The notes under the pieces were generated by a model, which worked only from the letters and a program-made list of their open reading frames with translations, was not told the origin of the DNA and ran no database searches. Both the position numbers and the translations under genes were made by a program. Shown one piece after another: positions 2,208 to 51,029 of a stretch of DNA of 64,000 nucleotides. The stretch covers positions 5,096,481 through 5,160,480 of the forward strand of contig NC_049992.1 of assembly GCF_000003815.2 (NCBI RefSeq), read 5' to 3'. Positions within the stretch are counted from its first letter, which is position 1. Every line of letters starts with the position of its first letter. The stretch is from Branchiostoma floridae. Lineage: Eukaryota; Chordata; Leptocardii; Amphioxiformes; Branchiostomatidae.

Positions 2208-5200
2208 TTATTGTACTGCTTCTGTCAAAAGCTGCTTAAACCGTGTCATATCAAGGCTTTCAATGACGTCAATATTCGGACTTTTGTGACTCAGTCTTGC
2301 CCAATCCACTACCATTTGTGCTCTTGTAAACTCGCCCTTCGTTTCTACTGTAGCGTACACATTAGAGATGGTCTGTGCCACGGCGTTGTCCATAGCAACG
2401 GCGGTTGCTAAGGTGTCGCTGGCTGTGTACGTCAGCGCGCCATCTTGTTGTAGTTGCTGGGTGAGGTTGTGTGAAATGTCCCGGATGAAGCGAGCCTTAG
2501 CGGTGTCTGCAGTTAGCCAGCTGGTGAAGAAATCCTTCATGGGAGATAAAAAAAGAACAAGAAAGGTGATATTTGCTAGCAAATAAATTACAAACATTAC
2601 AGGGGTAGGAGGAGCCCCTTCCATCCTTGGTCGGAATTCCTCCTAGGAGACGGAAACTCCAAATAATCTGAATCTGCTGGGGCCGTCTTACACGTGGCAT
2701 ATAATTCCTGTCCCTGTGGGACCCCGAGAGCGTGGAGAAGGACGTGCACAACTCTCTTTCACCTTAAAAAGCCACGTGCAGGCCAGGCAGACGGCAAGTA
2801 ATCTCCAAGCAGATCCTACAACGGCATATTATAGATGGTACCAAACTGACCAAGGAGTGTAGTCAGCCAAGAGGTGTACATTTGACATGTAGCAAAACAC
2901 ACTCCTAGGCCGGCTTCACTCCTCTGCCAGCTTTTGATACTGTCTTATGCTACCGTAGGATCGGCTTGGAGATTAGACGGCAAATAACTGTCTGCCTACC
3001 ATTGTCTTCCGGAACAGATGGATGCCAAAAGACAAAACGTTAACCTTCACATGGACATGCCTAAGAAACTACAGTAATTATTTTTTTCTTACTCAAACAC
3101 ATTCTTATATGTGGTGACCAGCTCTTCCGGCTGTCCTGCCACTTACTACATTATGTAATTGAACACCAAAGGGCCTGATACTTTACCAGTAACCATGGTG
3201 ACAGGCTTTTTTGTTCAGGTCATTGACCTCAGTTCTTAATTAAGAACGTTCAGGTCATTCACCTCATTTCTTAATTAAGAACGTTCAGGTCATTGACCTC
3301 AGTTCTTAATTAAGAACGTTCAGGTCATTGACCTCATTTCGTAATTAAGAACGTTCAGGTCATTGACCTCAGTTCTTAATTAAGACTGTTTAGGTCATTG
3401 ACATCATTTCTTAATTAAGAACGTTCAGGTCACTGACGTCATTTCTTAATTAAGAACGGAAGAAGATTCTGACGAAGACACGTTACGCCAGCAAAAACAA
3501 TATATTTCCGCTCCGTAATGGTAACATGAAAAGCACAGCATTTCGTCAAACGATTTGTAATTTTCCAGGACCGTTCAAGAGATATTGTTTTTGAAAGTCA
3601 TATAAGGATTCAATGTTTAAAAAGGGGTAAAATATATCCTTCCGAGTTTCCGCCAAATCAAATCTTACATCATCCGGTTGGCAAGAAAAAGTATAGAACC
3701 TTTTGGAAATATAATAATAACTTCGTAGAATGCTAAAAGAAGAAAAAGAGCAAGCATTTCTTTCTAGAAATACATTTCCCTTTATGTGTATAACAGAAAA
3801 ATAGATAGCTGTAAAATAGATTGCTATCCTTAAAACTGTTAGACGTACCCATTCCAGGCCGTGTTCCTGACAAACCTCCCACGGCACAACCTTCATGGGA
3901 CACTTGTACTCCCGCAGAACAACCTGCGCCGCCTCGGGGTCCATCCAGAAGTTAAACTCCGCAGCGACGTCCATGTTACCGACTCCTGTGGACAGGAAAG
4001 AACCAAGGATGTTAGATTAGATTTTGAGAGCTAAAAATGTCAATGGAAATAACATAAAAGGCTTTTGTATCTTGAACCTTGAACCTTGAACATGGACATC
4101 AGGGATGTTATGACGGGTCGCACTGGATCCTATGACTAGTACTTTGACCACGCCGAATGGTTAGTCATCAAATACATTTAATTTTCTACTTGTAGCTAGG
4201 GCTGGGTACCGGTACAGAAAATTCAGGTCCAGGTCCGGTTCAGGTCCAAAGGATTAGGTCCAGGTCCGGACCTGAACCTGGACCTGATGCAGTATGACTC
4301 ATACCAATTGTCCATTTCACTACAAAGAAATCTGTTTGGTGGAGTATTAGACTTACACTGGCGTTTTACAATCCTACAACGCTAACTGCACCTGTACGAT
4401 TGACTGTAAACCTTGGTAGAAATTACTATAAACTCTACTCTACTTCACTCTTGTCATTTTCTTCCAACTGCAAGCGCCAAAACGTGTGAATGCCTGATGA
4501 AACAATATGTTAATTTTCTAACCGGTCCAACATCCGGTCCACCTAATTTTTTCAGGTCCGGTTTTTCTGGACCGGTCCAATAAGAAAAACCGGTTTTGTA
4601 CCGGTACGCTGTACCGATACCCAGCCCTACTTGTAGCCAATGCTGCCAATCTAAAAAGGATACGCGATTTTAACATGATGATGGTTTTACATAAACAACT
4701 TAACACGTATACGACCTAAGCATCCAATATATTTGCATTTCATCAGGACAATGATACTAGTTTTTTTCATATTTTACTGTCATTCTAATAAATACATCAC
4801 ACATTTTGATGCAACAAAGTTGGTCTGAAAACACGACTATGTCCTTTCACAAAGTACCATGTTCCATGACAAGTTACCATGTTCATAGGTAAGGCGTCAA
4901 AATATCGATATCAATGTCTTTCCTGATTATAGAAAGTTTATTTGCAAGTACATGCCCGGAGACTTATTGCAAGTACATCGTAGAAACATAGAGAACATAC
5001 ACGTGAAAATTGATAGTGATAAATATCATTGTAACAAGAGACAACTTGAATTGAACTATTATATCAGCACAAGAAGCTGTAGATTCCATGTACATTTGTA
5101 GCATATTTCTTCGTAACGCTATCTTAACTTTATCTCTAAAACCACATACAGCCCATGTGACCCCTGACCTCTGATGTTGCCTCCCATGATGATGATCTCC

Positions 5201-8200
5201 TTGAAGCGTGAGGAAATGTCCGGGTCCATCCTCCTGGCCAGCGCCACGTTAGTGAGCGGACCGAGGGCGATGAGGGTGATCTGGTTCGGGTAAACCTTGG
5301 ACATCCGGATCAACGTTAACACGGCGTGTTCTAATGGGGGTGGGGATATAAGTTGATTCTTTTCAAACACCTTTATTACCAGTTTCAAAAATACAGTAGG
5401 TACATACATATTTCAGTCTTTTAACAATACATACATATTTCAGTCATATTTCAGGTGAGCATATCAGTAATGTGTAAAAAATGGAATATATCAACAATGA
5501 ATTTCGCACATGACTTGGAAAACTTCGTATGATGTTGTCATTTTTAAGAAGTATGTGATTACTCTTATGTTTCATCCAAGATAGAAAAATTGCGTTTTTA
5601 TTACTTCATTATTTTAGGACCATTGTCATTGAGATTTACAAGACCACAGCAACGCACAAATTTTCTGAAGATCTAGACACTAAAGTCTCCAGGTAAAGTA
5701 AAGAGCATGACACACCTGTCTGGTTGATCAGGTTGTAGTCAGGTAGGCTGACGTCAGGTACGTCTCCCATGCCGTCGGCGCCGTTCCAGTAGGTGTGGTC
5801 AAACACGTCATGCCCCATGAGCTGTAGCGACGCCCCTACGTGCACGGGGATCTGGGAAATGGGAACCACTAAATGTCACATAAGGCTACAGAAAGTAAAT
5901 TCTCTTGATGAGATCAGCGCGTTCTTACGTTTTGCTCAGTAGTCCAATGTGTTCTGCTGTTGCAGTGGTCTGGACATCCTGCAGCTGCAATCAGTCTTTC
6001 TTCAACTCCCTCCATTTCATCCTGTTCATAGCGACCCCCTACGTACGTGTACGGGGATCTTGGAAACCGAAGCAAAGGAAATCCCGAGTATCACCACACC
6101 CCAAGTGGAATACGACCACAAGCTTTATTGGAACGACAAAAAGTACAGTGAATTTCGTATGGTCAACTACAACCTACAAAATAGGGATACAGAGCAAATC
6201 TTAAGATTCTACTGACTATACAATATCGGATAACAAAATAAAAACGTTTATACAATTAGGCATGGCTAAGCGTGAGTGCCATTATATTTTCTAATTACAA
6301 AGCAATATTTCATGTCTTTGCCTATCTTAGCATTATGAGAGATGTTGGCTCTAAAAATATAGATGTCTTTTCGATGATGTAAATTGGGGGTGTCAATACG
6401 CCATTTATGTTCACATTTCTATACTATATTTGTATGCAGTTTTAGAACTTAGACGAGTATCATTGTATCAATTGACTTGTTACTGTTGCCTTACAATTAC
6501 ACCATGTACAAATGTTGTGCAATAAAGTTCATTCATTATTGGCCTCGGGCACGGTACAACAATCTCATTACTAGTACTCAAATGGGTAACACACCATCAT
6601 CATCATTATCATCACCGCGGGTGAGTTGCCCTGACCAGTTCTCCCCTTTCCTAATTGTAACTATTGGCTATTGTCATATAGCCAGGCGCCGCGGACCAAT
6701 CAGAAGGCCCCGTTCCACGTTAGTTATGACGCCGTAACACAAAGATTCCCGCCAGCCCGGCGTGTATCGCCCTTCTGATTGGTCAGAATGAATCGACACC
6801 GGCATTTGCATCGACACCGGCACCAGTGGCAATCAGAAGGAGCGATACACACATGATATGAAGGCATTGGCCAATTAAAAGGAGCGAAACATATGTCAGA
6901 GCAGAGGGAATAAGTACAGACTGCAAGAAGGGAGGAATGGCTCCTTCTGTTAACATTGATGTTCTAAAGAGCCAAATACTACAATGTTTCGAATATTTTC
7001 TGTGGAAATTTTGGTTTCAAAAGGCAATCTGTAATCTCCTTACATATGTATGTACCGAAGAACAAATGTGAATTTTTCAGAAATTTGACAAAGGAATTCA
7101 CACGTATTGTACCAAAGGATCTATGCTTCATACAGGAGTTTGCAAGTTTGGGTAGGCTATATGATAATAACGTTAATGACCCGCCTGTTCCTCTGTGTAC
7201 ATGGTGTCATAACGCCTGGTCCTTTGCTATAACCACCTCATAAAACCAGGAGGTTATAGCAAAGGACCAGGCGTTATGACACCATATACACCTCGGAGCG
7301 GGTCATTAACCCTTAATTCAAACACGACGGTGACAAGGAAGAACTCACATCCATCCGCCCGGCGACTTGCAGCACCCTCAGCGCGTTCCTAGCCGCCTGT
7401 TGAACTTCCCGCGCATTCCCTTTTACACACGTGACCGCCAGCACGCGCACAGCAGGCTGGGATAGCACCATCAACATGGCGATGGCGTCATCAATGCCGG
7501 GGTCCAAGTCAAGAATAACAAGTTTTTCCTCAACTGCAATCATTATTTAACATCAACAGAAGATGAAAAAAAAAACCATGAAAAACATAACGTCAAGAAT
7601 TATAATAAACAAGACTTTTCTACAATTAGTCATTTTAACTGTTTTTTAAAGATCCTGGTTCGCATTGTAACGCTAGTTCACCTTTATCCGTGGGGTAACC
7701 TATATCCGTTGTTTCTATAAACGGGGTATTTAGGGATATCAAGTCGACAAACGTGGTATCAAACTGCAAGATATTGCAAGTTGAAACCACCGTCCATCAA
7801 CTTGATATATACCCAGAAATACCCTGTTTATAGAAACACTGGATATAGGTTACCCCGCGGATAAAGTTGAACTAGCGTCAACACTGTAGATTTGTATACA
7901 TAGAAAAGTAAAAGACAAATGCAGTACCTTGTTGTCCAGCACGATTCGGTGAGCTAAGACTCAGGCCAACCCCGAGCCCAATGGCAAGAGACAGCAGGAC
8001 CCCAGCCAGAGCCTGCAGGGGACAACCGTTATGAGAACTTTCTGGCACGTTTGACCAGTTGCTGACGTCACGTGTACGTAAGATCACGTGTCAATAGCTA
8101 GGGTCACGTGGTTGTAACTCTGACGAGTTCACGTTCAATTCAGAACAGTGACTGGAAGGCGGCAGTGGCCGCAGAAAATTTGATCCGTGTAAACCTTTGT

Positions 8201-15200: not shown

Positions 15201-17769
15201 AACAGCAAAACCAGTCTGCTCTAGGCATCAGCACTTATCGTCCTAGATTACCAGCCGGCGCTTTGGTACTACTTACATGCAGTTCTAGAATCAATGGTGT
15301 TCAATAGCTGGCCTGGAGTCGTGTCTTGTTCGTTTTAGTCTGCTCCCGAAGGTCGCTACAGGTCTGTTGGCAGGGGAGCTGACTTCGGGAGCGGACTAAA
15401 ACGAAAAAGGCTGGACTCCGGGGTATTCAATAGCAACATCAATAAACATTACAAATCATTTCATCTACTTACATTATATTAGAACATTTAATATTACATT
15501 ATATATTTGTCCGTATTTGATAGAAACTACTTATTTCTACTTGATGAGCTGCGTCTTGTTTTTGCCTCCTTTAGAACACGCCGTGTTAATGTTGATCCGG
15601 ATGTCCAACGCCTACCCGAACCAGATCACCCTGATCGCCCTCGGTCCGCTCACTAACGTGGCGCTGGCCAGGAGGATGGACCCGGACATTTCCTCACGCT
15701 TCAAGGAGATCATCATCATGGGAGGCAACATCAGAGGTCAGAGGTCAATTTCAACATGTCGGAACGTGTAATGTATGATTTGCAACGGCTTTGGGGGGCT
15801 AGTAGAAAATTAGCTACAATCTGGCTTGTACAGTTGTAACTGTCAAGTTTTCATATGACAATCCGTACGTGCGCACGCACACACACATACACACTGACAC
15901 ACACGTATGAACGCGCGCACACGCGCGCGCATACGCACGAGGGGAGCGGTCACACAAGTGGATATACAGCAAGTCCGTATGAGTTACATGTACGTATTAT
16001 AAATGATGCTTTTGGTTTATATACGTGCAGACATGCAAATTCCTTTACTTATATTCTCAAATAAATAAAAGAGAAACACGTGTACTTTTTGTATTTATAC
16101 AAGGTGAAGGCAACATCGGCATCAGTGCGGAGTTTAACTTCTGGATGGACCCCGAGGCGGCGCAGGTTGTTCTGCGGGAGTACAAGTGCCCCATGAAGGT
16201 TGTACCGTGGGAGGTTTGTCAGGAACACGGACTGGAATGGGTAGGTATCACTATTCTTTTTTTTTACTCATTATATTATCTTATCATTTGTATGATATCA
16301 TATGACAGCTTTAATTCATTACCTACTACAATGACACTAAGTTGTATTTGTTATGATCTTTTATTCCAAGTTTGAATACCATAACATTACAACTTGCGCT
16401 CTGCAAACAACTTTCGAATTCGATTTTTCTTTTGGTGACACACTTATGAAAACATTCGTAGTTCTCGTGCCCAATACAAATAACTATTTAAGCTTTTTAA
16501 TGATGTAAGACGTTATGCTAATCATTGAAAGATAACGGACGTGGATTTTCGGCACTTTAAGGTTACGCAACACTTCTTTCTCAGGATTTCTTCGCGAATT
16601 GGACCGCCATGCCGACGCGGAGGGCTCGCTTCATCAAGGCCATCTCCCTGAACCTGTCCAAGTGGCTGAGGGGCCAGGGCGAGCCGACCTACCTGTCGTG
16701 CGATCCCCTGGCAACCGCCATCGTCATCGACACCGGCATCGTGCAGACCGTGGACACGGTGTGTAACTGTAACAGTGGGATATAGGAGAATTCTTGTACA
16801 CAAACAAAATTAAACTTACTTGCTTACGTTTCGGTGTCTATCAGACACCTTCCTCGGAGCTTCTGACTGGAGTTCTGCTTCTCGTCGCTATATGTAGCCG
16901 ACGTAGGTGGCGCTTTTGCGACGTGAAGATTATCCCAAACGTGTCCAAGTTTGTATCTTCCCGATTCATCACTGGGGCTGACTTTCTTATCCATACCGCC
17001 TCTTTAAGTTAATCCACCTGAGTCGTCTGTTGTCTTCCCTGTCTATGACTCTGGCCCCCTCCCAATCAATGACGCAGTTGTTCCTGGCAATACAAGTATG
17101 TTCCGTTACTCCTATATCCTATATTGTACCAACCTGATGAAATTATTTTCGGATGTAACAGTGGGGTTTAAGGACTGCTAAACTGAAGACACCAAACGGC
17201 TTCAGCCTTTTGGCGGAACGGTTTAGAGTCTGGGTTTGTGAGCTGGTGGCCTGGGATCGACGCCGGTTCTAGTCCCGGGAGTCAGGATATTTGTATGTAT
17301 TGTTTCCGTCTGTTTCTACTCCCTTCTTGTTTTCACTGGTTCCCATGCCGCCGACCGTGTGAGTAAAAAGCTAGAGATGTTCTACACAGGGATGCCGAAC
17401 TCGGAAATTCGAGGGCGAATCTTAAAAAGAAAAGGGGGAGTTCAGGACCTGTTTAGAAATAGCCAACACTAGTATTAGAGTACAGGATTGTTTATAACTG
17501 TTCATTTTCACTTGTATATCTACTATGTTCATACTATGTACTTGCAATTAGCCCTCGGGCACGAACTTGCAAATAAACTTATTTTTATATACGTTCTACC
17601 TTTTTCCCTTCTGTTTCAGGTGTACGCCACGGTGGAGGTGGAGGGGGAGTACACCCGTGCGCAGATGGTGGTGGACTGGTGGGGATTCCGCAGGAAGACT
17701 CCGAACGTGGACATCATCAGGAGTCTGAACATGTCCAGATACAAGAATCTTTTAATGACCGCCATGTGA
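12231..17769 (+). CDS. Nucleoside hydrolase B (inosine-uridine preferring family), secreted form
   Basis: Seven coding exons: 12231-12306, 13320-13504, 14387-14522, 15575-15736, 16104-16240, 16585-16758, 17620-17769; 339 aa in frame, all GT-AG. Exons 2-5 have exactly the lengths of their A counterparts (185, 136, 162, 137). Residues 1-18 ([18 protein letters not shown]) look like a cleavable signal peptide. DVDPGIDD is at 34-41, [10 protein letters not shown] at 196-205. The late catalytic motif is Cys-Asp (YLSCDPLA), not His-Asp. The ATG is the first triplet after an acceptor, so a 5' UTR exon upstream is expected. An extra phase-0 intron (16759-17619) splits what is one exon in A. The 3' end of the last exon is repeated downstream. 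Product family firm; substrate unknown. Confidence 0.9.
12314..12768. mobile_element. MITE, TAACGCT family, copy 2, split by a nested SINE-like insertion
   Basis: Ends TAACGCTTGTTCACCTTTAT and GATAAAGGTGAACTAGCATTA are inverted. The interior is interrupted by a 229-bp insertion at 12343-12571 flanked by TTGGGT on both sides (12337-12342, 12572-12577). The MITE begins 7 bases after the first exon of hydrolase B. Confidence 0.8.
12343..12571 (+). mobile_element. SINE-like insertion nested in MITE
   Basis: Flanked by 6-bp direct repeats TTGGGT. It contains GGACGTTAAATGGAGG and CACGTTAAAGAACC, words I associate with dispersed short elements in marine invertebrates (from memory). Its 3' part (GGGTTAGCCCTT ... 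GGGCAGCCCTGGCTG ... CTGAACA) recurs at 35405-35490. The MITE is older than this insertion. Confidence 0.6.
13730..13903. mobile_element. Diverged MITE related to 10027-10206
   Basis: Contains TAGCAGTTACTCGAGCAACT at the left and GATATCCAGTGTAGG ... CTAGTAACC at the right, a degenerate inverted pair in hydrolase B. Ends are approximate. Confidence 0.5.
14712..15120. mobile_element. MITE, TAGCCTGG(T/A)TACCA ends
   Basis: Left TAGCCTGGTTACCAAACCCC and right GGGGTATGGTATCCAGGCTA are inverted. The flanks resemble each other (CTTTAAGG and TTTTAAGG), suggesting an 8-bp duplication with one change. About 410 bp in an intron of hydrolase B. The end motif is shared with 28489-28733. Confidence 0.75.
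15308..15425. mobile_element. Small foldback MITE with TTCAATAG target duplication
   Basis: 118 bp. Arms share CGTTTTAGTCTGCTCCCGAAG / CTTCGGGAGCGGACTAAAACG (by inverted pairing) and CTGGAGTC / GACTCCG. TTCAATAG flanks both sides exactly (15300-15307, 15426-15433). Confidence 0.8.
15865..15945. repeat. CA/CG-rich alternating purine-pyrimidine tract
   Basis: A run of ACACAC, GCGCGC and TACGCAC words in intron 5 of hydrolase B, about 160 bases before exon 6. It is compositionally a Z-DNA-prone simple repeat. Confidence 0.7.
16780..17154. mobile_element. Dispersed repeat filling the start of the extra intron of hydrolase B
   Basis: Bounded by an 11-bp direct repeat GTAACAGTGGG (16769-16779 and 17155-17165). 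Sub-terminal inverted words GGATATAGGAG / CTCCTATATCC lie near its ends. Related pieces occur in fumarase intron 8 (about 36440-36490) and TMEM26 intron 2 (about 41340-41470): ACCAACCTGATGAAA, TTGCTTACGTTTC, AGTTCTGCTTCTCG. Family unknown. Confidence 0.55.
17205..17290 (+). mobile_element. tRNA-derived SINE-like head
   Basis: Contains GGTTCTAGTCCCG, one change from a tRNA B-box, preceded by TGGCGGAACGGTTTAGAG, which resembles a tRNA 5' region. It is in the last intron of hydrolase B. Not folded as a tRNA gene; 3' limit unknown. Confidence 0.35.
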
Positions 17770-29204: not shown

Positions 29205-32200
29205 ATGCTGGGTTGTCGGCACCTGAGTAGACTGCTGAGCAGGACACAGCTGTTGCCGCACCTGACCAGGGCAAAGGCAACAGCTGCGGCACCTGACGCA
29301 AAGTCCTTCTTCTACCAGGACGTGTTTCAGCCTGAGAAACCCCTGGACACTCCCTATAGGAAACTCACAGGTGGGAAATGTGATGTAAATTATAATCGTG
29401 TTAACATACAAATGATGATAAGATTAGGTGAAAATAGAGAAAAAAGGTAATAAAATTTATCAAAATATGTATTCACCTTATGATCTTTTTACCTGGATGT
29501 CTTTCCTTCATTGATTTATAATGTTATAGATCTGGACAGTTATAACTACTATATTCAGTGCAGTGTAGTGTATGTTGATTAGTGAGTAAGGGAGTGAATG
29601 TGAATGAGTTAGTGAGTGTAAATGAGTGAAAAAGCATGTGAACAAATAAAGAATGAATGAGTGAGCGAATATTTGAATGCAAGAATAAATAAATGAACAA
29701 ATAAATGAACAAATGAATGAATGAACAAATGAATGAACAAATGAATGAATGAACAAATGAATGAATGAACAAATGAATGAATGCAAGAATGAATAAATGA
29801 ACAAATAAAGGAACAAATGAATAACTGAACAAATGAATGAATGAACAAATGAATAAACTGATTCCCCTGCCCTCCATGTTGTTTACATGACTGTTGCCCA
29901 GGTGACCATGTGTCCATGTTTGAGATACTTGTTCAGACAGACCTGTGGTTTTGCCATCGGATGTCCCTGCATAGGAGGATGGAGTGAATGATGTTACTAA
30001 CTGCCCTGTCCTCCCTACTGTCCAGGAGACTATGTGTCCACGTTTGAGGTCCAGGGTAGGACCTGTCTGAAGGTGGAGCCTGAGTGAATGATGTTTAAAT
30101 GTACACACCTGTTGCTAACTGCCCTGTCCTCCCTGCTGTCCAGGTGACCATGTTTGAGGTTCATGTTCTTGTATATGGTTACTGGGTAACACCCCTTAGT
30201 GTTGGGGCAATCCACGCAGGGTCCAGGGTAGGACCTGTCTGAAGGTGGAACCTGAGTGAATGATGTTTAACCCTCAAACCACCGTATGGGGTCAAAACTG
30301 ACCCCAGGCGTATATCAATGCGTGCCATTATGTCATTTCAGATGGAAAACAAATTTTCTTCCAGGAGTTTGTTTGTATATATATCCTATAACTTCTTATA
30401 CGTTTTTACCGAGATTGTCTCATTGTTTATTAAGTTATCCTAGAAAGTGAATGCATGGTCCAGTGGGGTCAAAACTGACCCCAGCATTTTTTTTAACAAA
30501 CTTTTGTGACCCACACCTAAACTACTTATCGTAGGATCACGAAATTTTCAGAGAATGATGTACATGCAGGCCAAAATTATTGTAACAACTTTTGTGCCAA
30601 TATCATGTCATATGACGACATTATGACGTCATCTAGGTAATATCGGCCGCCATCTTGGATTTTGACTGCTGACGTCATCAAATTAGCATAAAATATGAAT
30701 ATTGAGTCATGAAATTAACGTTGAATTTTATAAGATGTGATAAACAACTGTTATTTGCTAAGAAAAGCTTAAAACTTAAATGTTTAATACAAAATTAGAA
30801 AATTTCGTAATAAATATGTCTGTCAGAATTCTGTTGCCATGGCAACATGAAAAATAATGAACATACTTTGTTCACTGAAAATGTTTGCTATCAACATTTT
30901 CTAAAACATTACCAAGTTTGGTGGCCCTAGCATAAGCTATTCAGACGCTATACGGCATTGAAGTTGGTACAGGTATAAAAAACCTCCTTCCCGGTCTGAA
31001 TAGCGTTGGTGCAAAATGTGGTCCTCATTATGTTTTGCATAAATTATGATAATGAGCTAAAAGTATTGTCACCTAATCATGTCAGACTGTCCCACATATA
31101 TTAATGAAACTATACATATATACAAATCACAAAAAACTGTATTTGTACAAAACGTTTTGGGGTCAGTTTTGACCCCATACGGTAATCTACGTCACAAAAA
31201 AGCTACGGTGGTTTGAGGGTTAACTTAAAAAAAACTAAATGTACCCCACACACCTGTTGCTAAATGCCCTGTCCTCCCTGCTGTTACGGTGACCATGTGA
31301 CCATGTTTGAGGTTCTTGTTTGGACAGACCTGTGGTTTTGCCATTGGATGTCCCTGCGTAGGAGGATGGAGTGAATGATGTTGCTAACTGCCCTGTCTTC
31401 CCTACTATCCAGGTGACTATGTGTCCACCTTTGAGGTCCAGGGTAAGACCTGTCTGAAGGTGAAGCCTGAGTGAATGATGTTTAAATGTTCCCCACACAC
31501 CTGTTGCTAACTGAATGATACATGTAAATGTGCCCCAGCAGCCCCACACACCTGTTGCTAACTGCCCTGTCCTCCCTGTCCAGGTGACTATGTGTCCACG
31601 TTTGAGGTCCAGGGTAAGACCTGTCTGAAGGTGGAGCCTGAGGCTCTGACCCTGCTGACCCAGGAGGCCATGGTGGACATCGCACATCTGCTCCGCCCCG
31701 CACACTTGGCGGTGAGAACACGTTTGTCTAATTGTTTATGTAAACTTTGTTTATTAAACTTTATCATGGCAATGAAGGGGGGGGGGGGGGGCAAAACAGG
31801 TGATTGCTCACTTGGCTGTGAGAATATGTAACCCTTATAAGTTATATCACAATAAAGTTATTATTATTATATATATAATTGTTATTATTGTTATCATCAT
31901 GGCTGTTGTAACGTTTCAGTCTCATACATCAGAGTCACAGTGAAGAGAATATTTCAAAGGAAATATAACCAATAAACAACAGAGCTACACTTAATACTTT
32001 CATGGTGGTTTTGTTTGGTGGTAGAGAGAAGGATTTTGTGGTCCTCGGAATAGATTTGCGGTTTGCAGTACTGTAGCATAGAAGTCCTACAAGGGCAAAT
32101 ATTCTTGGTGGATTGGTCACCCCAAAAGCCTGAAAATAGCACCACTGCAGAAATTTAAAGATTAACAGTATATTATGCTTTACAAGCTCTTATGATACCA

Positions 32201-35200
32201 CATACATGTAATACGTGTGCAGGTTAGTGCAGAAGAACTTGGCACTGCATACATGTAGGTATTTCTAATGTCTACTAAAGCAATGATTGTGATGTAATAT
32301 GTGGCTCATATGTTTCCATAGCAACTGAGAAAGATCCTTGACGACCCCGAGGCGTCCCCTAATGACAAGTATGTCGCCATGGAGTTTCTAAAGAACGCAA
32401 ATATCGCGGCTGCCAAGGTGCTGCCAGGATGTCAGGATACGGGCACCGCCATTATCATGGGTAAGAATGACTCGTATACTCTTCTTGAAGCATGATGCTT
32501 TTTCAAGTAGCCAGCTGTGCAATGTGGCTTTCCTGCAGTTGAACTGTGTTTAGCCATGCGCACAGGGTCACCCCTACTCTTTAAACATCAAGTGTGTTGG
32601 TCTTTCATGTTAATTCATGTTTGATTAAGAAAGAAAGTAATGATGGGATTATTTCATGATACTAAACATCATGGACTCATTTTAGTTTCGGCTACACCAA
32701 TTTTAATTCGGTGTTACTGGATTTTTGCAGAATATAAATGGACCAGACGGATGACATTAAGTTTTTTAAAAATTATATAAAATAGGCATTCAATCTTCCA
32801 ATGTTTTATTTTTTACATTTTTAAAGCATGATTAAATACATGAAGAATAATTCAACAAAATAGCTAATGATGATGATAAAATCAGACGAAACATTTGGTA
32901 TAAAAATACATTATGTGCAAGCAGTTGCTGCGTGCCTATTAGTAGAATGCCACATCATTTCATTTTTTTCAATTTAGAAAAATCTAGGAACCAAGAAATA
33001 AAATTTGTTTCCTTTATGAACAGGTAAGAAGGGCCAGTATGTGTGGACAGATGGAAATGATGAAGAACACCTGGCAAGAGGGGTCTACAACACTTACACA
33101 CAGAAGAACCTTAGATACTCACAGGTAAGTCTACAACACCTACACACAGAAGAACCTTAGATACTCACAGGTAAGTCTACAACACTTACACACAGAAACT
33201 CAGGTACTCATAATTATGAATTGAACATTGTATGGTCAGTTGCAAAGTTGTTATCATAATTTTCTGTTGATCACCTTATTTTGTACTTTATGTGTGTGAT
33301 CAAAGAGAAAAGTCTAAATCTTTGTCCTTCTGTAAATTTTCCTTTTCTGCAAGTTTTAATGTTTTCAGTTACACGGTAATACACGCTAACAACAATGAGT
33401 AGTGGTGCGTACCTAAAGCCCAGACTTGGAATTGGACCTAAAATGTTTAGGTCCAAGGTCCAAGTCCAAAAAAAAACCTGAATGTCCGGAGCCAAGTCCG
33501 GACTTGCAAAAAGCAATCTGTCACTTATATTCCCTTTTTTTGTTCTAAACCATTTAAAACCTTCCATAGACAGTGAAATTTGCACTGAAACTTTTCGTGT
33601 TTACACTGGCTGTATATAATTTGCATGTATTTTTCACATTGCATTTCAATTCATAACAATGCAATTTTATATGCACCACCCCCCCTCCCCCTCAAAAAAA
33701 ATTTCTAGTGCACATAATATGCAATGATGGGTTCAGGTCCGGACTTAAAGTCCGAACCTGAACCTGAACTGCTGGACTTGAATCCGGACCTGAACCTAAA
33801 TATGAGTTTAGGTATGCACCACTAGCAATGAGTATATATATATATATCTTTTTAACTTAAGTTTGAAGTATTTTTACAAGAATTTGATGACAAATTGAAT
33901 TATAGTGAATGAAATGAAATAGTTATAATAGTTATAGTGAATGAAATGAAATAGTTATACTATTCTAATAGTGGTGATAATTTGGCAGGTGGCACCCTTG
34001 GACATGTTTAAAGAAGCCAACACGAAGACGAATCTCCCGGCGCAGATTGAGCTGTACGCCACGGGCTCCGACACCTACAACTTCATGTTCATTGCCAAGG
34101 GCGGGGGCTCGGCCAACAAGACCTTCCTGTACCAGCAGACAAAGGCTCTTCTTAACCCCGAAAAACTCACCAAGTTCATCGATGAAAAAATCAAGGTGCT
34201 CACCAGACTTTGAAATCTTTATGTAAAGACAATACATGTCTTAACAAGAATTCACAACCAAAAAATGATTTCTTGTTTTTCACTTTTTTCTTATTTTCCT
34301 GAACTCATTGACACATTTTCTTTCTTTGAATTTCAAGAATGAATGAGAAAAAAAACTGAAATTTCTTTGAAATTCCATGCATTTGTATTCTAATATAATA
34401 ATTGTATTGTGACCGTAATACGTGTAGCTCCTTTACTAGACTAAGTAGCTAAGTCTACATCATTGTAGCATGTACATTTTGTAATAATGAAGTATCATTC
34501 CGCTGTCATGACAAGGGGGGTGCAGCCTCATTTACCTCTGGGACAGCACTATTATCATAGTGCCATCTAGTGGCAAGAGGTATAATTACACTTAGATAAA
34601 GTCACTGTTACAAGAAGATTTTGGTTGCATGTGGTTTTAGATAGTTGACTTTGACTTTATTTGGATCCACAATTAACTTGACATGATCTCTGTTAGCTAT
34701 TCTTCCTGTGGTTCTGCACATAAAATACACAATACAATATCACATGATGGACATGACAAAAATATATTCCACTGTTGTACAGACCCTAGGGACAGCTGCC
34801 TGCCCACCCTACCACCTGGCCATCGTGGTGGGAGGACTGTCTGCTGAGATGACACTCAAAACGGTCAAGCTGGCCTCCACAAAGTACCTGGACTCTCTGC
34901 CCACTTCAGGTGAGTCAGGGTCTGAAGTTTTTGTAATGTGCTCACAAACAAACAAAGAAACAAACATGTACTCTCAAGTTTTGTTCCATGGCTTCTTATT
35001 GCATTATCAAATGAATTTGGTGCATGGTGTGTTTTAAAACTTAATTGCCAAATTAGGCAAATCCGGATGTTTTGAGTGACATCCATCACTCTTCTTCTGT
35101 GTCATTCTAATGATGCTGAAGAAGAGTGATGGATGTCAGCCGAAACTTACGGAAGTAATTCTCAATTTTTTGTCAATTTGTAGAGATTGAATAATGATTA

Positions 35201-37955
35201 TTGTATTTCAATAAAGTGTTTAAGTTTTTCTTTTTATTATTATTATTATTATACACCATAAAAGTTCTTTTTATCTTTATTACCTGCATGAAAAATGCAG
35301 GTATAGTTTCTCTTCTTATGCACTTAAGAATAGAATAATTGTTATTGATAGTTAAGTTTCCTGTCCTTGTCCAATTCCATTTGTCTTGTCTCTGTCTCTG
35401 TCAACAGGGTTAGCCCTTTGTAAAAGCACAGGCTAGTTGGGCAGCCCTGGCTGTGCGTGCTGAACAGCCAAACCAATAAATGAAAAAATATTCTCTTTTG
35501 ACTACACACATTTTAGGAAACGAGCATGGAAGAGCGTTCCGGGATGTAGAACTTGAGGAACAGGTGCACAAGCTGTCGCAGGTGATGGGAATGGGCGCGC
35601 AGTTCGGCGGGAAGTATTTCTGTCACGACGTGCGGGTGGTGAGACTGCCTCGTCACGGAGCGTCCTGTCCGGTGGGAATCGGTGTCTCATGCTCCGCAGA
35701 CAGACAGGTGATTCTTCATAATTTTTATCAGAAACCTTTAACCAAACTTTTTTCGATCCAACCCAGTTTCAACCAACAGCAACAACTTATTCTTGGAACA
35801 TCAATTCAAGAAAAATTCATCCAAATGAACTCTGTTCGCTTCCACCAGAGTGTGATTTCATAAATAGCAACGGGGGGCGTGGAATCAATGGAAGCGTGTG
35901 TAAGAAGCCTCTGTAATACAGATAATTATCACCCGGCCTGGAACAATCAAATATTATCGCGGCCCAGGTATGACATAAAACTGTTATTGATACTACGGGT
36001 CAAAGTACTGTTGGTAAACATTCATCTGCTGACCTGTCCCTGTTCTTCATCATCAGGCACTAGGAAAGATCACAGCGGACGGCGTGTTTCTGGAACAGCT
36101 GGAGGAGGACCCCTCCAAGTACCTCCCAGAGATCAAGACTGACCAGCTGAGCGGGGAGGTGGTGCAGGTGCTGCAAGTTTAACTCTGCCTCAAAATTGAA
36201 CAGGAACATGGTTTAATTCTAAACATCTTAACTGTAGTCCATATTTCAAATCTCTTCTGATGTTCCTAATTAGATTAAACACAACTCAAGCCTAAAGATT
36301 TGATGCTGACTTTTTTGTTATTTAGATTAACTTAAACCAGCCAACGAGTGACAGTCTATTTTACGTTTGATAGAGAGACTTTTTTTACACAACCACTGCT
36401 TTATTTCCAATGCTTTGTAGTAGTTGTGTAAAGAAGTGTCTCTTTATTCAGTGACGTACCAACCTGATGAAACTATTACTGTAACAGTAATACATTCTCC
36501 ATGTAGTTTGCCATATTTAATGCTGACATTCTTGTTGATCAGATCAACTTGAACCAGCCAATGAGTGAGGTTCTGAAGATCCTGAGCCAGTACCCGGTGA
36601 GAACGCGGCTGAGTCTGAGCGGCACCATGGTCGTGGCTCGGGACATCGCCCACGCCAAGATCCAAGAGCTGCTGGACAGCGGGCAGCCCATGCCACAGTA
36701 CCTCAAGGACCACCCTGTGTACTACGCTGGACCTGCCAAGACACCAGAGGTATTGTTGTTGTTATTGGGCAGGCTGATTACTACCACTTTGCAGCCAGGG
36801 GCTGAATTGCGAGGAGCTTACGATAAGTGGGGCTAAATTGCAAGGGTCTGGAGCGGCTGCCATTCTGCGTCACTCAGGTGTTACCCTGACTATGAAAAGT
36901 AACAAGTATATCAAAATCTCACTCATGGAACTTACTTGCCCAGGAAATGCACTTGCCCAAGCTGCACTTTCACTTGCCCAGGGCGATAGGGCTAGTGGAC
37001 TTGTCCAACCCTGGATTTACTGAGAAGAAGTGTGAGTAATTCTGTGTCCCTCCCCAGGGTTATGCTTCGGGCTTGCTGGGCCCCACCACGGCCGGCAGGA
37101 TAGACAGTTATTACGGTATGAGTGATAGTTTGTGAAGGTTAGTGTGTGTGAAGGTGATAGTGTGTGTCTGTCCCCAGGGTTACGCCTCCGGCTCGCTGGG
37201 CCCCACCACTGCCGGCAGGATGGACAGTTACGTGGACTCGTTCCAGGAGCAGGGAGGGTCCATGGTCATGCTGGCCAAGGGCAACAGGAGTAAGCAGGTA
37301 CATGCACAGGAGATACGGGGATATGCTACCACTACATCTATACACGTAAAGGACATACATGGATATGCTATTAGTACATGTTCGTAGTGTATCTATACAT
37401 GTACAGGACATACAGGGAAATGCTACCAGCACAAACTGTATCTGTATTTATATCATATCCGGGCCATGTTTACATTTGATTTTGGTGTTGTAGCTAGTCC
37501 GTATTTTACAGTACGGCCCGGGGCTCCATACAAAAGTATGAATGGTTGAAACTAGCTCGCTTGTGTGCGGCACTGTCAGAAATTAAAACAGCTAATCAAC
37601 TGTCTGCCCGGTTTGTTTGAATTAAACATTTTTTTCCTTTTGCTCTTTTTTGCGATAAACTTGGTCGGGTTGGCATGATATACATGATAGAGTTAATCTT
37701 TTGACATTTAAATTTTGTTAAATGTTTCTTCATCAGGTAACCAAGGCATGTAAGAAGCATGGCGGATTCTACCTGGGGTCCATCGGAGGCCCTGCTGCGG
37801 TGCTGGCCGAACACAGCATCAAGAAACTGGAGGTTCTGGAGTACCCCGAGCTGGGCATGGAGGCCGTCTGGAGGGTCGAAGTCGAGAACTTCCCGGCTTT
37901 CATCGTTGTCGACAACAAGGGAAACGACTTCTTCAAAGAATGGCAAACAGAGTGA
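29205..37955 (+). CDS. Class I fumarate hydratase (4Fe-4S fumarase), probably mitochondrial
   Basis: Interconverts fumarate and malate using a 4Fe-4S cluster. Eleven GT-AG exons: 29205-29370, 31584-31711, 32322-32460, 33024-33124, 33989-34195, 34783-34909, 35517-35707, 36057-36167, 36543-36749, 37178-37297, 37737-37955; 571 aa in frame. Near-colinear with E. coli FumA/FumB from about residue 40: [79 protein letters not shown]. The three cluster cysteines are C135, C254 and C348, with the 119- and 94-residue spacing of the family. The first ~30 residues are Arg/Leu-rich without acids, as in mitochondrial leaders. Most animals use the unrelated class II enzyme. Several exon edges are duplicated in adjoining introns. 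Introns rule out bacterial contamination. Targeting is inferred. Confidence 0.95.
29560..29866. repeat. GAAT / GAACAAAT simple-sequence array in fumarase intron 1
   Basis: Degenerate runs of AATGAATGAACAAATGAATG. The long reverse-strand open frames here (Ile/Phe/His/Ser-rich) are artefacts of the repeat. Confidence 0.9.
30026..31475 (+). repeat. Truncated copies of fumarase exon 2 5' edge plus acceptor
   Basis: The first ~65 bases of exon 2 with the preceding CT-rich tract and AG recur at 30026-30089 and 31413-31473, with shorter pieces near 29900, 30144, 30222-30258 and 31290. Shared words are CCTGTCCTCCCT, CTATGTGTCCAC, TTTGAGGTCCAGGGTA and ACCTGTCTGAAGGTG. Each long copy stops matching after CCTGAG and runs into TGA, so none could replace exon 2. 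The true exon is at 31584-31711. A piggyBac-type MITE splits the array. Confidence 0.88.
30271..31219. mobile_element. piggyBac-type non-autonomous element (949 bp, TTAA target)
   Basis: Ends CCCTCAAACCACCGTA and TACGGTGGTTTGAGGG are exact inverted repeats, flanked by TTAA on both sides (30267-30270, 31220-31223), the piggyBac rule. A second inverted motif GGGGTCAAAACTGACCCC sits inside the left end, again internally near 30468, and inverted near the right end (GGGGTCAGTTTTGACCCC). No transposase frame. Confidence 0.93.
33128..33210 (+). repeat. Tandem copies of fumarase exon 4 3' edge with its donor
   Basis: Directly after the exon 4 donor, TCTACAACACCTACACACAG, then AAGAACCTTAGATACTCACA and GGTAAGT repeats the exon end (33080-33130), and a third, shorter copy follows. 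The second copy keeps a complete CAG|GTAAGT donor about 48 bases downstream. Confidence 0.85.
33410..33824. mobile_element. hAT-type MITE, TAGTGGTGCGTACCTAAA ends
   Basis: Inverted ends TAGTGGTGCGTACCTAAA and TTTAGGTATGCACCACTA; flanks ACAATGAG and GCAATGAG (one mismatch). The interior is rich in GGTCCGGA/TCCGGACC words like 4197-4629. In fumarase intron 4. Confidence 0.85.
34640..34757. repeat. Dispersed repeat next to fumarase exon 6 (second copy 38108-38225)
   Basis: Both copies share GACTTTATTT, GATCCACAATTA, GTTAGCTATTCT, TGTGGTTCTGCACATAAAAT-like words, ACAATATCACAT and GGACATGACA in the same order. This looks like the reversed 3' end of a LINE. This copy stops 26 bases before the exon 6 acceptor. 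Confidence 0.75.
35405..35490 (+). mobile_element. SINE 3' fragment, same family as 12343-12571
   Basis: Shares GGGTTAGCCCTTTG-, GGCTAGTTGGGCAGCCCTGG and CTGAACA with the nested element at 12343-12571, then ends in AATAAATGAAAAAATA. It lies within 30 bases of fumarase exon 7. Confidence 0.65.
37058..37115 (+). repeat. Tandem copy of fumarase exon 10 5' edge with its acceptor
   Basis: TCCCCAG|GGTTATGCTTCG ... CTGGGCCCCACCACGGCCGG repeats the start of exon 10 (37178 on) about 120 bases upstream, including the polypyrimidine tract. It reads [19 protein letters not shown] and then meets a GT. At 58 bases its use with that donor would shift the frame. Confidence 0.85.
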
Positions 37956-47894: not shown

Positions 47895-50597
47895 TTAAAT
47901 GTTATGATTAACGAGGTGAGCAGCATCCCTCCGAGGCCTCAGCTGGTCTATTTTACGCCACAGTTCTTCAGGAGTCGGTCGCTTGGATGGGTCGACTATC
48001 CAGCAGGACCTGATGATGCGGTACACCGACATCGGACAGTTCTCCGGCTGCTGCAGACGGACTCCTTTCCTCAGCAGCTCCAACAGTGTACACACGTCCG
48101 GATGCATCGGGCCGCCAGCATAGCGCGGCTCCTCCCCAAAGCTGGCGATCTCCCACAGCAGCACGCCGTACGACCACACGTCACTCTCGCACGTGTATAC
48201 CCCGTCCCGTAACGACTCCAGGGCCATCCACTTCAGCGGCAACAGCTCCTCCTCCCCGCCCTGGTTGGTGCGTTTGTACGCCGACGACACGTAAACGTCA
48301 CGCGACAGCCCGAAATCCGCGATCTTGGCCACCTTCCTGTCGCTGATGACGACATTGCGAGCTGCGATGTCCCTGTGCACGATCTTCAGACGTGCCAGCT
48401 CTGATAACCCACTGGCCACATCAGCAGCAAAATTAAGCCGTTCTAACAGTTTTCTATTGCCCGTGGTCTTATACTGCTCTCTCAAAGCCCACAGGTACCG
48501 TCGCAGTTCTTCATTGCTTGCGTACTCCACCACAATGTACTGGGGATCCGATTTCGTCATGACTCCATAAAACTTAACCACATTCGGGTGTCCCTCTTTG
48601 TTTTCGTGTATCCTGGCGAGGATGTCCATTTCGCGGCGAAAGTCACGGGCAGCCGTCGGTGTCATTCTGTCTGGTCGGATACATTTGGCAGCGACCAAAA
48701 TCTCGTAGCCTTCTGGCACACGCAGTCTTCCTCTCACAACATGGCCGAACTCTCCCTCACCGATCATGTGTTCCAAACTGATGTTCTCCTTGTCCAGTTC
48801 CCATGGTGAGAGTGTTTCCATTTCTATGTCCACCTTTGTATATCCCGCGTCGTTTGGATTGAAACAACATCGTCTTACCAGAACCATAATCACGACACAT
48901 GTACAGCCGACGAGAACTATGGAGGGAAGAACAGTTGCCAACACCTTGACAATGATTTGATTACTTTTAGCTGTGGGAGCGTTTTGGCAAAATTCACCCC
49001 ACTGTCCTTTTGCGCAAACACATGTGCCATTGACTGCGTCACACGAGGCGTTGTTCTGACAGTGACAGTACATGCTGCAATTCATACCAAAACTGCCAGG
49101 TGCGCAGGTGTACTCACACCTGCCTCCATGACGCCCCGGAGGACACACACAACCCTCCCACCTGTCACACGTCCCTCCGTACTGACAGTTACACACTTGG
49201 CTGCAAACTTCCCCATAATGATCGGGAGGACATTCAGTGGCGTTTAAGACGAAAAGTGCATGAAATGCTTCACCGTCTACTGCTCTAACCACACAAGTAT
49301 ATTCACCATTGACAGATTCCGAGACCGGATAAAAGTTTATGGAACTGTTCTGCACAGCCCCTTTTTCGATGATTTTTGTGTCATTTTCTTCGTTTCTCGC
49401 TCGATAAAGCCACGCCATGTCTGCTACCTGTATGTGTGGAGCCAGGCAGGTCAGAGTCAGGTTAGTACCGATGTACGTGATGACTGAATCACCAGAAGAA
49501 TCTATTATGACGACCTCACGCCAGGGAATGTCACAGGCCCTTCCTCTCCAGCCCGGACGGCACTCACACGCACCGTTAAAGCCGTGACAACGGGCCCCGT
49601 TCTGACAAACACAGTCCTTGTCACAGTAAAACCCATACCTGCTCTGGGGACACCCTGTAATGTTGTACTCATGTATGGACTCCAGTTCAAATGGCATAAG
49701 GAAGCCGTTGATTGCCTGTAACGTCACATTAGCGCCACACCGGACCCAGTAGGACGAAGTGGACCAAATCTCAGACAGCTCTAGAAGTGAAATGTAACCG
49801 AAATCTTCTATCATGTTGCACTGGCCACTCTCTGTAAATGGAGGCAATAACGTATCATTGATGGAAATAGATAAAATTACAAGGCTACCTTTGCTTTTGA
49901 ACTGTTTATCGTGACATTGGAATTCAATTCTGCCTTCTCGTGATTCAAGTTGCGGAAGTAGAATCCATGCATCAGAACTTAGTTTGACCAAAGCGACACA
50001 CAGTCGAAGGGAACAGTCTCCGTCCATGGCAGCATTCACGGCTTCGTTGCGCCAGGACGGGAGAAAGTCCGGGTATGGTCGTTCTTCTCCGTTATATATA
50101 ATGTTAAAATATCCATTATTGCTTATTACCATATGCTTATCATCCATGTTATTGCTCGGTAGAACTGGCGTCTCACACCGTTTGTTGTAGTACGGCGGAT
50201 ATCCTGACACGTCCATTACCACAATGATGAGGTTCACGTGCCAGAATCTGCTGTCCCCAGTATTTGTCAGCTCCAGGGAAAGGTTGTACCGCGGGAACAA
50301 CTCATAGTCCAGCGGCGCCGCAACGATCATTGTGAAGTCCTCAACACTAACCTCAAACCGTTTGAAATCATCACCTTTGGTGATGTTAACTGACCATATT
50401 GTTATCTTGCCTTCTTCTGTAATGTTAACGTTAGCGTTAACAAAATCCCTCAGATGTTTAACCGTGCTGCCCACTGCCACATCCTCACGTAGCGTCACGT
50501 TTTCACTTAGAACCACGACGTCACCACGGCTCTGTGAGGTCAGTGAAAGCAGGTCGGTCAGCAAAAGCACGATGTACAATGTTCCACACGGCGCCAT
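47895..50597 (-). CDS. Receptor tyrosine kinase with cadherin-like, EGF, Ig and EGF domains; intronless coding region
   Basis: Single-pass surface receptor predicted to phosphorylate tyrosines. One uninterrupted 900-codon frame. Signal peptide about 1-22. Residues 34-135 resemble a cadherin repeat (LREDVAVGSTV near the start, PLDYE at 95-99). EGF-like C316-C355; Ig-like about 360-452 with C384 and C435 (GEYTC); two EGF-like modules C456-C494 and C497-C537; membrane helix about 548-574. Kinase 605-887: G-loop GEGEFGHV (613-620), K638, HRDIAARN (741-748), DFG (761-763), activation loop ending LPLKWMALES. All catalytic residues are present. The HRDIAARN and PLKWMALE forms fix it as a tyrosine kinase; the EGF/Ig mix recalls Tie receptors, but I do not assign an orthologue. 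The lack of introns suggests a retrocopy origin. An acceptor-like CCCAG at about 50666 hints at a 5' UTR intron. Confidence 0.94.
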   Translation of the reverse strand: MAPCGTLYIVLLLTDLLSLTSQSRGDVVVLSENVTLREDVAVGSTVKHLRDFVNANVNITEEGKITIWSVNITKGDDFKRFEVSVEDFTMIVAAPLDYELFPRYNLSLELTNTGDSRFWHVNLIIVVMDVSGYPPYYNKRCETPVLPSNNMDDKHMVISNNGYFNIIYNGEERPYPDFLPSWRNEAVNAAMDGDCSLRLCVALVKLSSDAWILLPQLESREGRIEFQCHDKQFKSKGSLVILSISINDTLLPPFTESGQCNMIEDFGYISLLELSEIWSTSSYWVRCGANVTLQAINGFLMPFELESIHEYNITGCPQSRYGFYCDKDCVCQNGARCHGFNGACECRPGWRGRACDIPWREVVIIDSSGDSVITYIGTNLTLTCLAPHIQVADMAWLYRARNEENDTKIIEKGAVQNSSINFYPVSESVNGEYTCVVRAVDGEAFHALFVLNATECPPDHYGEVCSQVCNCQYGGTCDRWEGCVCPPGRHGGRCEYTCAPGSFGMNCSMYCHCQNNASCDAVNGTCVCAKGQWGEFCQNAPTAKSNQIIVKVLATVLPSIVLVGCTCVVIMVLVRRCCFNPNDAGYTKVDIEMETLSPWELDKENISLEHMIGEGEFGHVVRGRLRVPEGYEILVAAKCIRPDRMTPTAARDFRREMDILARIHENKEGHPNVVKFYGVMTKSDPQYIVVEYASNEELRRYLWALREQYKTTGNRKLLERLNFAADVASGLSELARLKIVHRDIAARNVVISDRKVAKIADFGLSRDVYVSSAYKRTNQGGEEELLPLKWMALESLRDGVYTCESDVWSYGVLLWEIASFGEEPRYAGGPMHPDVCTLLELLRKGVRLQQPENCPMSVYRIIRSCWIVDPSKRPTPEELWRKIDQLRPRRDAAHLVNHNI

Positions 50598-51029
50598 CTT
50601 CTCGGCAGGACAGAAGACGTTCGACTTTGCGTAGCTTCAGGTATGGCGACGGTACTAGGATCTACCTGGGTATGAAAGAGTTTTAAAATGACAGCTTAAA
50701 AGTTAGAAATTAACATTAACACCAAGAGTTGTACTATTTCATCGGCAAATATACAAAGTATGATACATAAGATTTACCACTGGAACTTATGTTACGATCA
50801 TATGATACCAGAAATTTCAATAGCTTTTTATAGCGATAAAAGATATACAGATACGTGAAATGACTGTTTTGACTCGCCCGCCTCCGGGTATGCATGGAAA
50901 AAGGTGATAACTGTTTTCCGAGATTACGGTACTGCAGTTTGGCAGGAATGACTGACTGGCCCTGTGAACAACCAAATACAATTCAGACCCTGTTTTATCA
51001 TAGCTATTGACCCGAGCCATTCCCCCGTT

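Follow-up and report, generated by a model that had tools for sequence, protein, structure and literature searches.

Branchiostoma floridae probably possesses a working [4Fe-4S] class I fumarase, likely mitochondrial, encoded by a nuclear gene of old alphaproteobacterial type, as judged by comparison with bacterial and eukaryotic sequences. The gene lies in a window of 64,000 nt, which is the whole stretch of DNA analysed here and which a profile search of the organism's own genome placed at 5.10-5.16 Mb of contig C14 (assembly of 513.4 Mb, 431 contigs). Class I fumarases are known from bacteria as well as from certain archaea and eukaryotes (PMC4682846).

Splicing of the predicted exons between positions 29205 and 37955 of the forward strand joins 11 exons into 1716 nt, corresponding to 571 amino acids and a stop codon, with no internal stop. 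The 10 introns are all of the GT-AG type, with phases 1,0,1,0,0,1,0,0,0,0. The 11 in-frame exons and the 571-residue product proposed in the initial annotation were recovered at the same coordinates. Exon 1 (29205..29370) carries the start codon, a putative mitochondrial leader (approximately residues 1-32) and the start of the enzyme, and is followed by exon 2 (31584..31711), exon 3 (32322..32460), which encodes the cluster cysteine Cys135, exon 4 (33024..33124) and exon 5 (33989..34195). The two other cluster cysteines, Cys254 and Cys348, are encoded by exon 6 (34783..34909) and exon 7 (35517..35707), respectively. Downstream of exon 8 (36057..36167), exon 9 (36543..36749) encodes part of the C-terminal domain, exon 10 (37178..37297) contains Thr469, Arg473 and Lys493, which align with catalytic residues, and exon 11 (37737..37955) ends with the stop codon. 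Some of the donor sites are weak (gtgctc, gtgctg, gtattg and gtacat); the exon boundaries are fixed despite this by the protein alignment. The third-position GC content of the gene (0.72) is higher than that of its neighbours (0.56-0.67) and of the class II fumarase exons described later in the text (0.59).

Both class I fumarase domains are present in the single chain of 571 amino acids: the Pfam profile PF05681 (N-terminal Fumerase) matches residues 81-354 with 267 bits and PF05683 (Fumerase_C) matches residues 362-568 with 291 bits. The NCBIfam FumA profile NF011919 matches residues 32-570 with 894 bits and an E-value of 2.6e-269, so that a chance match is of no concern. However, this score misses the curated cut-off of 1105 bits, which indicates a class I fumarase that falls outside the NCBI FumA equivalog type. 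As in the bacterial single-chain FumA and FumB, with which the protein is colinear, both domains are fused; the Branchiostoma gene differs from its bacterial counterparts by its ten introns, approximately 30 extra N-terminal residues and the score below the FumA equivalog cut-off. The protein is 69% identical to Klebsiella FumA, 69% identical to its Azospirillum relative and 74-75% identical to the best alphaproteobacterial proteins.

Among solved structures, the best matches are chains named fumarate hydratase, 5l2r and 6mso, both of them eukaryotic class I enzymes, namely Leishmania LmFH-2 and LmFH-1, respectively. Identity reaches 63% with 5l2r (338 of 534 aligned residues) and 65% with 6mso. 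Cys135, Cys254 and Cys348 align with C133, C252 and C346 of LmFH-2, and the spacing typical of the family is kept. This bears out the three cluster cysteines and the colinearity with FumA/FumB noted in the initial annotation. Moreover, the seven catalytic residues of LmFH-2 (D135, R173, H334, R421, T467, R471 and K491) are all identical in the Branchiostoma protein, so that 5l2r shares both the cluster cysteines and the checked active-site residues with it and 10 out of 10 cluster and catalytic positions are kept.

The N-terminal extension had been proposed to be a mitochondrial-type leader, for which the sequence is only suggestive. Residues 1-32 include five lysines or arginines and one acidic residue, and the chain of a bacterial relative starts near residue 31 of the Branchiostoma protein. 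The amphipathic moment does not stand above that of shuffled sequences, the best 18-residue stretch giving 0.425, a value reached by 30% of 5000 shuffles. Mitochondrial targeting is plausible, judged by composition alone.

The search of the assembly for a class II fumarase that had been recommended in the initial annotation was positive. In the profile search of the organism's own genome, FumaraseC_C gave one match, near 12.709 Mb of C1, and the two 10-kb pieces around it contain six class II fumarase coding stretches and a candidate first exon. The latter (MLSRTIPALSVCRLF...RTM) is leader-like and ends in an ATG ahead of a GT donor; this ATG occupies the position of the second start of the human gene. 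The last 140 residues align without gaps with mitochondrial fumarate hydratase chains, 117 of them being identical. The two 10-kb pieces yielded no exon encoding the SSNDTF and GRTH motifs, and its expected place (C1, about 12.7065 Mb; L087) is occupied by a run of approximately 115 N, which may be an assembly gap. This indicates that the class II gene is incomplete in the sequence and is not evidence that it is broken. Since a class II fumarase is present, the class I protein would be an extra enzyme. The initial annotation needs amending in two respects: a class I enzyme had already been described from animals, namely trematodes (PMC5257007), and the Branchiostoma genome keeps a class II fumarase as well.

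According to the Fasciola hepatica genome paper, F. hepatica and its relatives have a class I fumarate hydratase (K01676) beside class II, as does Branchiostoma; the trematode enzyme is termed Platyhelminthes-specific there (PMC5257007). It is suggested to act in malate dismutation (PMC5257007). Another study connects rhodoquinone with COQ2 residues, rhodoquinone makers having a Leu/Ser pair as against Phe204/Ala243 (PMC7434440); in the Branchiostoma assembly, UbiA exons of a putative COQ2 gene lie at 6.948-6.950 Mb of contig C7. Among the matches listed in searches of the open-access literature, the Fasciola paper alone was recognised as describing such an enzyme from an animal, although others may exist in print. 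As the trematode enzyme is already in print, the Branchiostoma gene adds a further animal and not a new kind of enzyme. Class I fumarases are also listed in the public annotation of other invertebrates.

The coexistence of two fumarases also bears on what the class I enzyme does. Its main job could be the hydration of C5 dicarboxylates, for example mesaconate, fumarate being used only on the side. Such a role would fit a genome already equipped with a class II fumarase, and the class I fumarases of E. coli are promiscuous and also hydrate mesaconate, an ability that the same report argues to extend to most or all iron-dependent fumarases (PMC4682846). However, the protein is 63-74% identical to known fumarases, and the residues that handle fumarate and malate in the Leishmania enzyme are kept. 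We therefore regard a principal role on C5 dicarboxylates as unlikely, and a fumarase proper as the preferred reading.

Bacterial relatives were counted at E ≤ 0.001 with any degree of similarity. Genomes with a match number 141 of 193 in the phylum of Corallococcus (G001), 228 of 398 in that of a Hyphomicrobiales genome (G003) and 127 of 246 in that of Nocardioides (G005); for G229, the figures are six of seven genomes of its order and 145 of 385 of its class. At least 586 stretches of genome contigs encode a relative, and the best 80 of these were kept. The best identities are 75% (G841 and G229), 74% in the phylum of Corallococcus and 72% in that of Nocardioides. G229, G841, G843 and G840 fall in the class of G003; the Hyphomicrobiales belong to the Alphaproteobacteria, and this class is thus the Alphaproteobacteria. 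At one locus (L124), the fumarase gene adjoins an SspB-like gene. Two scans of viral contigs revealed no relatives. Eighteen records of a phage collection matched; the titles of several identify them as bacterial chromosomes, and all 18 were left out of the analysis.

Three trees were built: a quick one of 83 rows, a careful one of 74 rows and one of 47 rows from which Leishmania was omitted and in which Klebsiella FumA and G531 served as the outgroup. Rows marked Proteo were placed to phylum only; they include alphaproteobacteria, at least in the case of G336 and G477. In the 83- and 74-row trees, the gene falls among alphaproteobacterial rows together with two or three other rows of Pseudomonadota, and this set adjoins a clade of myxobacteria and actinobacteria. 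Support for the alphaproteobacterial set holding the gene is 93 (SH-aLRT) in the 83-row tree and 89/91 in the 74-row tree, the bootstraps of the latter being unsettled. In the 47-row tree, the gene sits on an open fork inside a group of alphaproteobacteria, myxobacteria and actinobacteria, and the separation of this group from the outgroup has 100/100 support (bootstraps again unsettled). The alphaproteobacterial placement of the gene is only moderately supported by these trees.

The Leishmania enzymes separate from the Branchiostoma gene in the free trees. LmFH-2 groups with one myxobacterial row (97, starred) and LmFH-1 with one alphaproteobacterial row (90) in the 83-row tree, and both stand on open forks in the 74-row tree. 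The end branch of the gene is 0.34-0.41 long, as against medians of 0.19-0.27. When clades were constrained, neither a common clade with both Leishmania rows (p-AU 0.211) nor one with LmFH-2 alone (0.143) was rejected, and the same was true of a clade with myxobacteria and actinobacteria (0.285) and of one with the order of G229 (0.265). The trees point to an old, alphaproteobacterial-type descent, with which several donors and dates would be compatible. The initial annotation had left the choice between an ancient eukaryotic gene and an old transfer: no recent bacterial clade holds the gene, and the tests (p-AU 0.143-0.285) reject neither.

These data also weigh on the idea that this lineage alone acquired the gene from a bacterium in recent times, which we consider very unlikely. 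An identity of 75% to bacterial proteins is in its favour, as is a comparison set composed without other animal sequences. Against it stand the ten spliceosomal introns and the deep branching of the gene among rows of alphaproteobacteria, myxobacteria and actinobacteria, with no tight bacterial clade around it. Moreover, a class I enzyme is present in trematodes too (PMC5257007).

Three exons of the gene (2, 4 and 10) have adjoining partial copies. The acceptor and the first part of exon 2 occur twice in intron 1, on the forward strand at 30018..30084 and 31405..31471, and each copy reaches an in-frame TGA; they are contained in two 202-nt blocks (29901-30102 and 31288-31489) that are 93% alike. 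These copies may represent pseudo-exons or poison exons. Exon 4 has its end and donor site repeated in tandem at 33129..33174 on the forward strand (98% over 46 nt, region 33083-33220). An upstream intron copy of the exon 10 acceptor and start lies on the same strand at 37043..37110 (88% over 68 nt, region 37043-37230). Intron 1 also contains an element of approximately 950 nt (30267-31223), flanked by TTAA and with inverted ends (CCCTCAAACCACC...GGTGGTTTGAGGG), which resembles a short piggyBac-like element.

Partial copying of exons 2, 4 and 10 in introns could be regarded as part of the decay of an unused gene. However, all 11 exons are open, every splice site is present and each of the 10 functional residues is kept, and we therefore find decay very unlikely.

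The setting of the gene is that of an animal chromosome, and it combines with the spliceosomal introns. The window contains no N, and the neighbours comprise pieces of an inosine-uridine nucleoside hydrolase, a sigma-1-receptor-like exon, TMEM26 exons, a receptor tyrosine kinase and rhodopsin-type receptors. The exon structure refutes bacterial contamination and an assembly chimera, in favour of which nothing was found and which retain a vanishingly small probability. The N-free window, the flanking animal-type genes and the location 5.1 Mb into a contig that is at least 11 Mb long also count against them. Contamination and recent transfer were both rejected in view of the introns, the neighbours and the position in the trees. 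The combination that had been named as counterevidence, a recent bacterial clade with flanking contig breaks, was not observed, and the view that this is a genuine animal class I fumarase gene with introns is supported. PF05681 and PF05683 were each matched at this locus only in the genome, where only the best candidates were scored. A search of the same genome with the GFP family profile PF01353 gave no match, and in the exon-by-exon search 14 controls were also without match, so that the result does not demonstrate absence and the family may have been missed; 16 GFP-like genes are described for amphioxus in PMC2679011.

Elsewhere in the window, the nucleoside hydrolase (PF01156) exons form two sets in opposite directions, approximately 10 kb apart (2208-5412, reverse strand, and 15400-17769, forward strand), which share nearly identical stretches. 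The receptor tyrosine kinase at 47895-50636 (reverse strand) lies in a frame of 913 codons that is uninterrupted between two stops; it includes an Ig domain, matches cadherin weakly and is possibly a single-exon receptor or a retrogene.

For the working class I fumarase that we favour, the following scheme can be proposed. The protein would adopt the two-domain fold of the fused FumA/LmFH type and dimerise, with C135, C254 and C348 binding one [4Fe-4S] cluster. By homology only, the open iron would act as a Lewis acid in the interconversion of fumarate and malate and activate substrate or water, and Thr469 would be the likely base, by analogy with the Leishmania enzyme. The N-terminal extension would most likely direct the protein to mitochondria, where it would work beside class II. 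The gene probably descends from one of alphaproteobacterial type that was acquired in the distant past, either the proto-mitochondrial one or through a later transfer, and long enough ago for ten introns to be present. Its likely benefit would be extra fumarase capacity at low oxygen: class II fumarase is present and is oxygen-tolerant (PMC4682846), so the contribution of class I would come under conditions in which its cluster is stable, for example in low-oxygen mitochondria. Mesaconate hydration may be a side activity. One class I fumarase is reported to be active in air (PMC10602362), and oxygen sensitivity should therefore not be assumed for the Branchiostoma enzyme. Taken with the mesaconate activity of the bacterial enzymes, this makes both its substrate range and its oxygen sensitivity uncertain.

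A wider scenario, which we put forward tentatively and consider rather doubtful, is that class I fumarase came with the mitochondrial ancestor and reached early animals beside class II, surviving in a scattered manner in Branchiostoma, trematodes and kinetoplastids and being lost from vertebrates. If this were true, an iron-sulphur step of bacterial type would have persisted in the tricarboxylic acid cycle of animals for more than half a billion years. The Branchiostoma gene takes animal class I fumarase beyond the flatworms, to which it had been termed specific (PMC5257007), and would affect proposals of the enzyme as a drug target in so far as they assume that only parasites have it. The lancelet is a free-living animal and could be used to study the reason for keeping a second fumarase, possibly sensitive to oxygen, beside class II.
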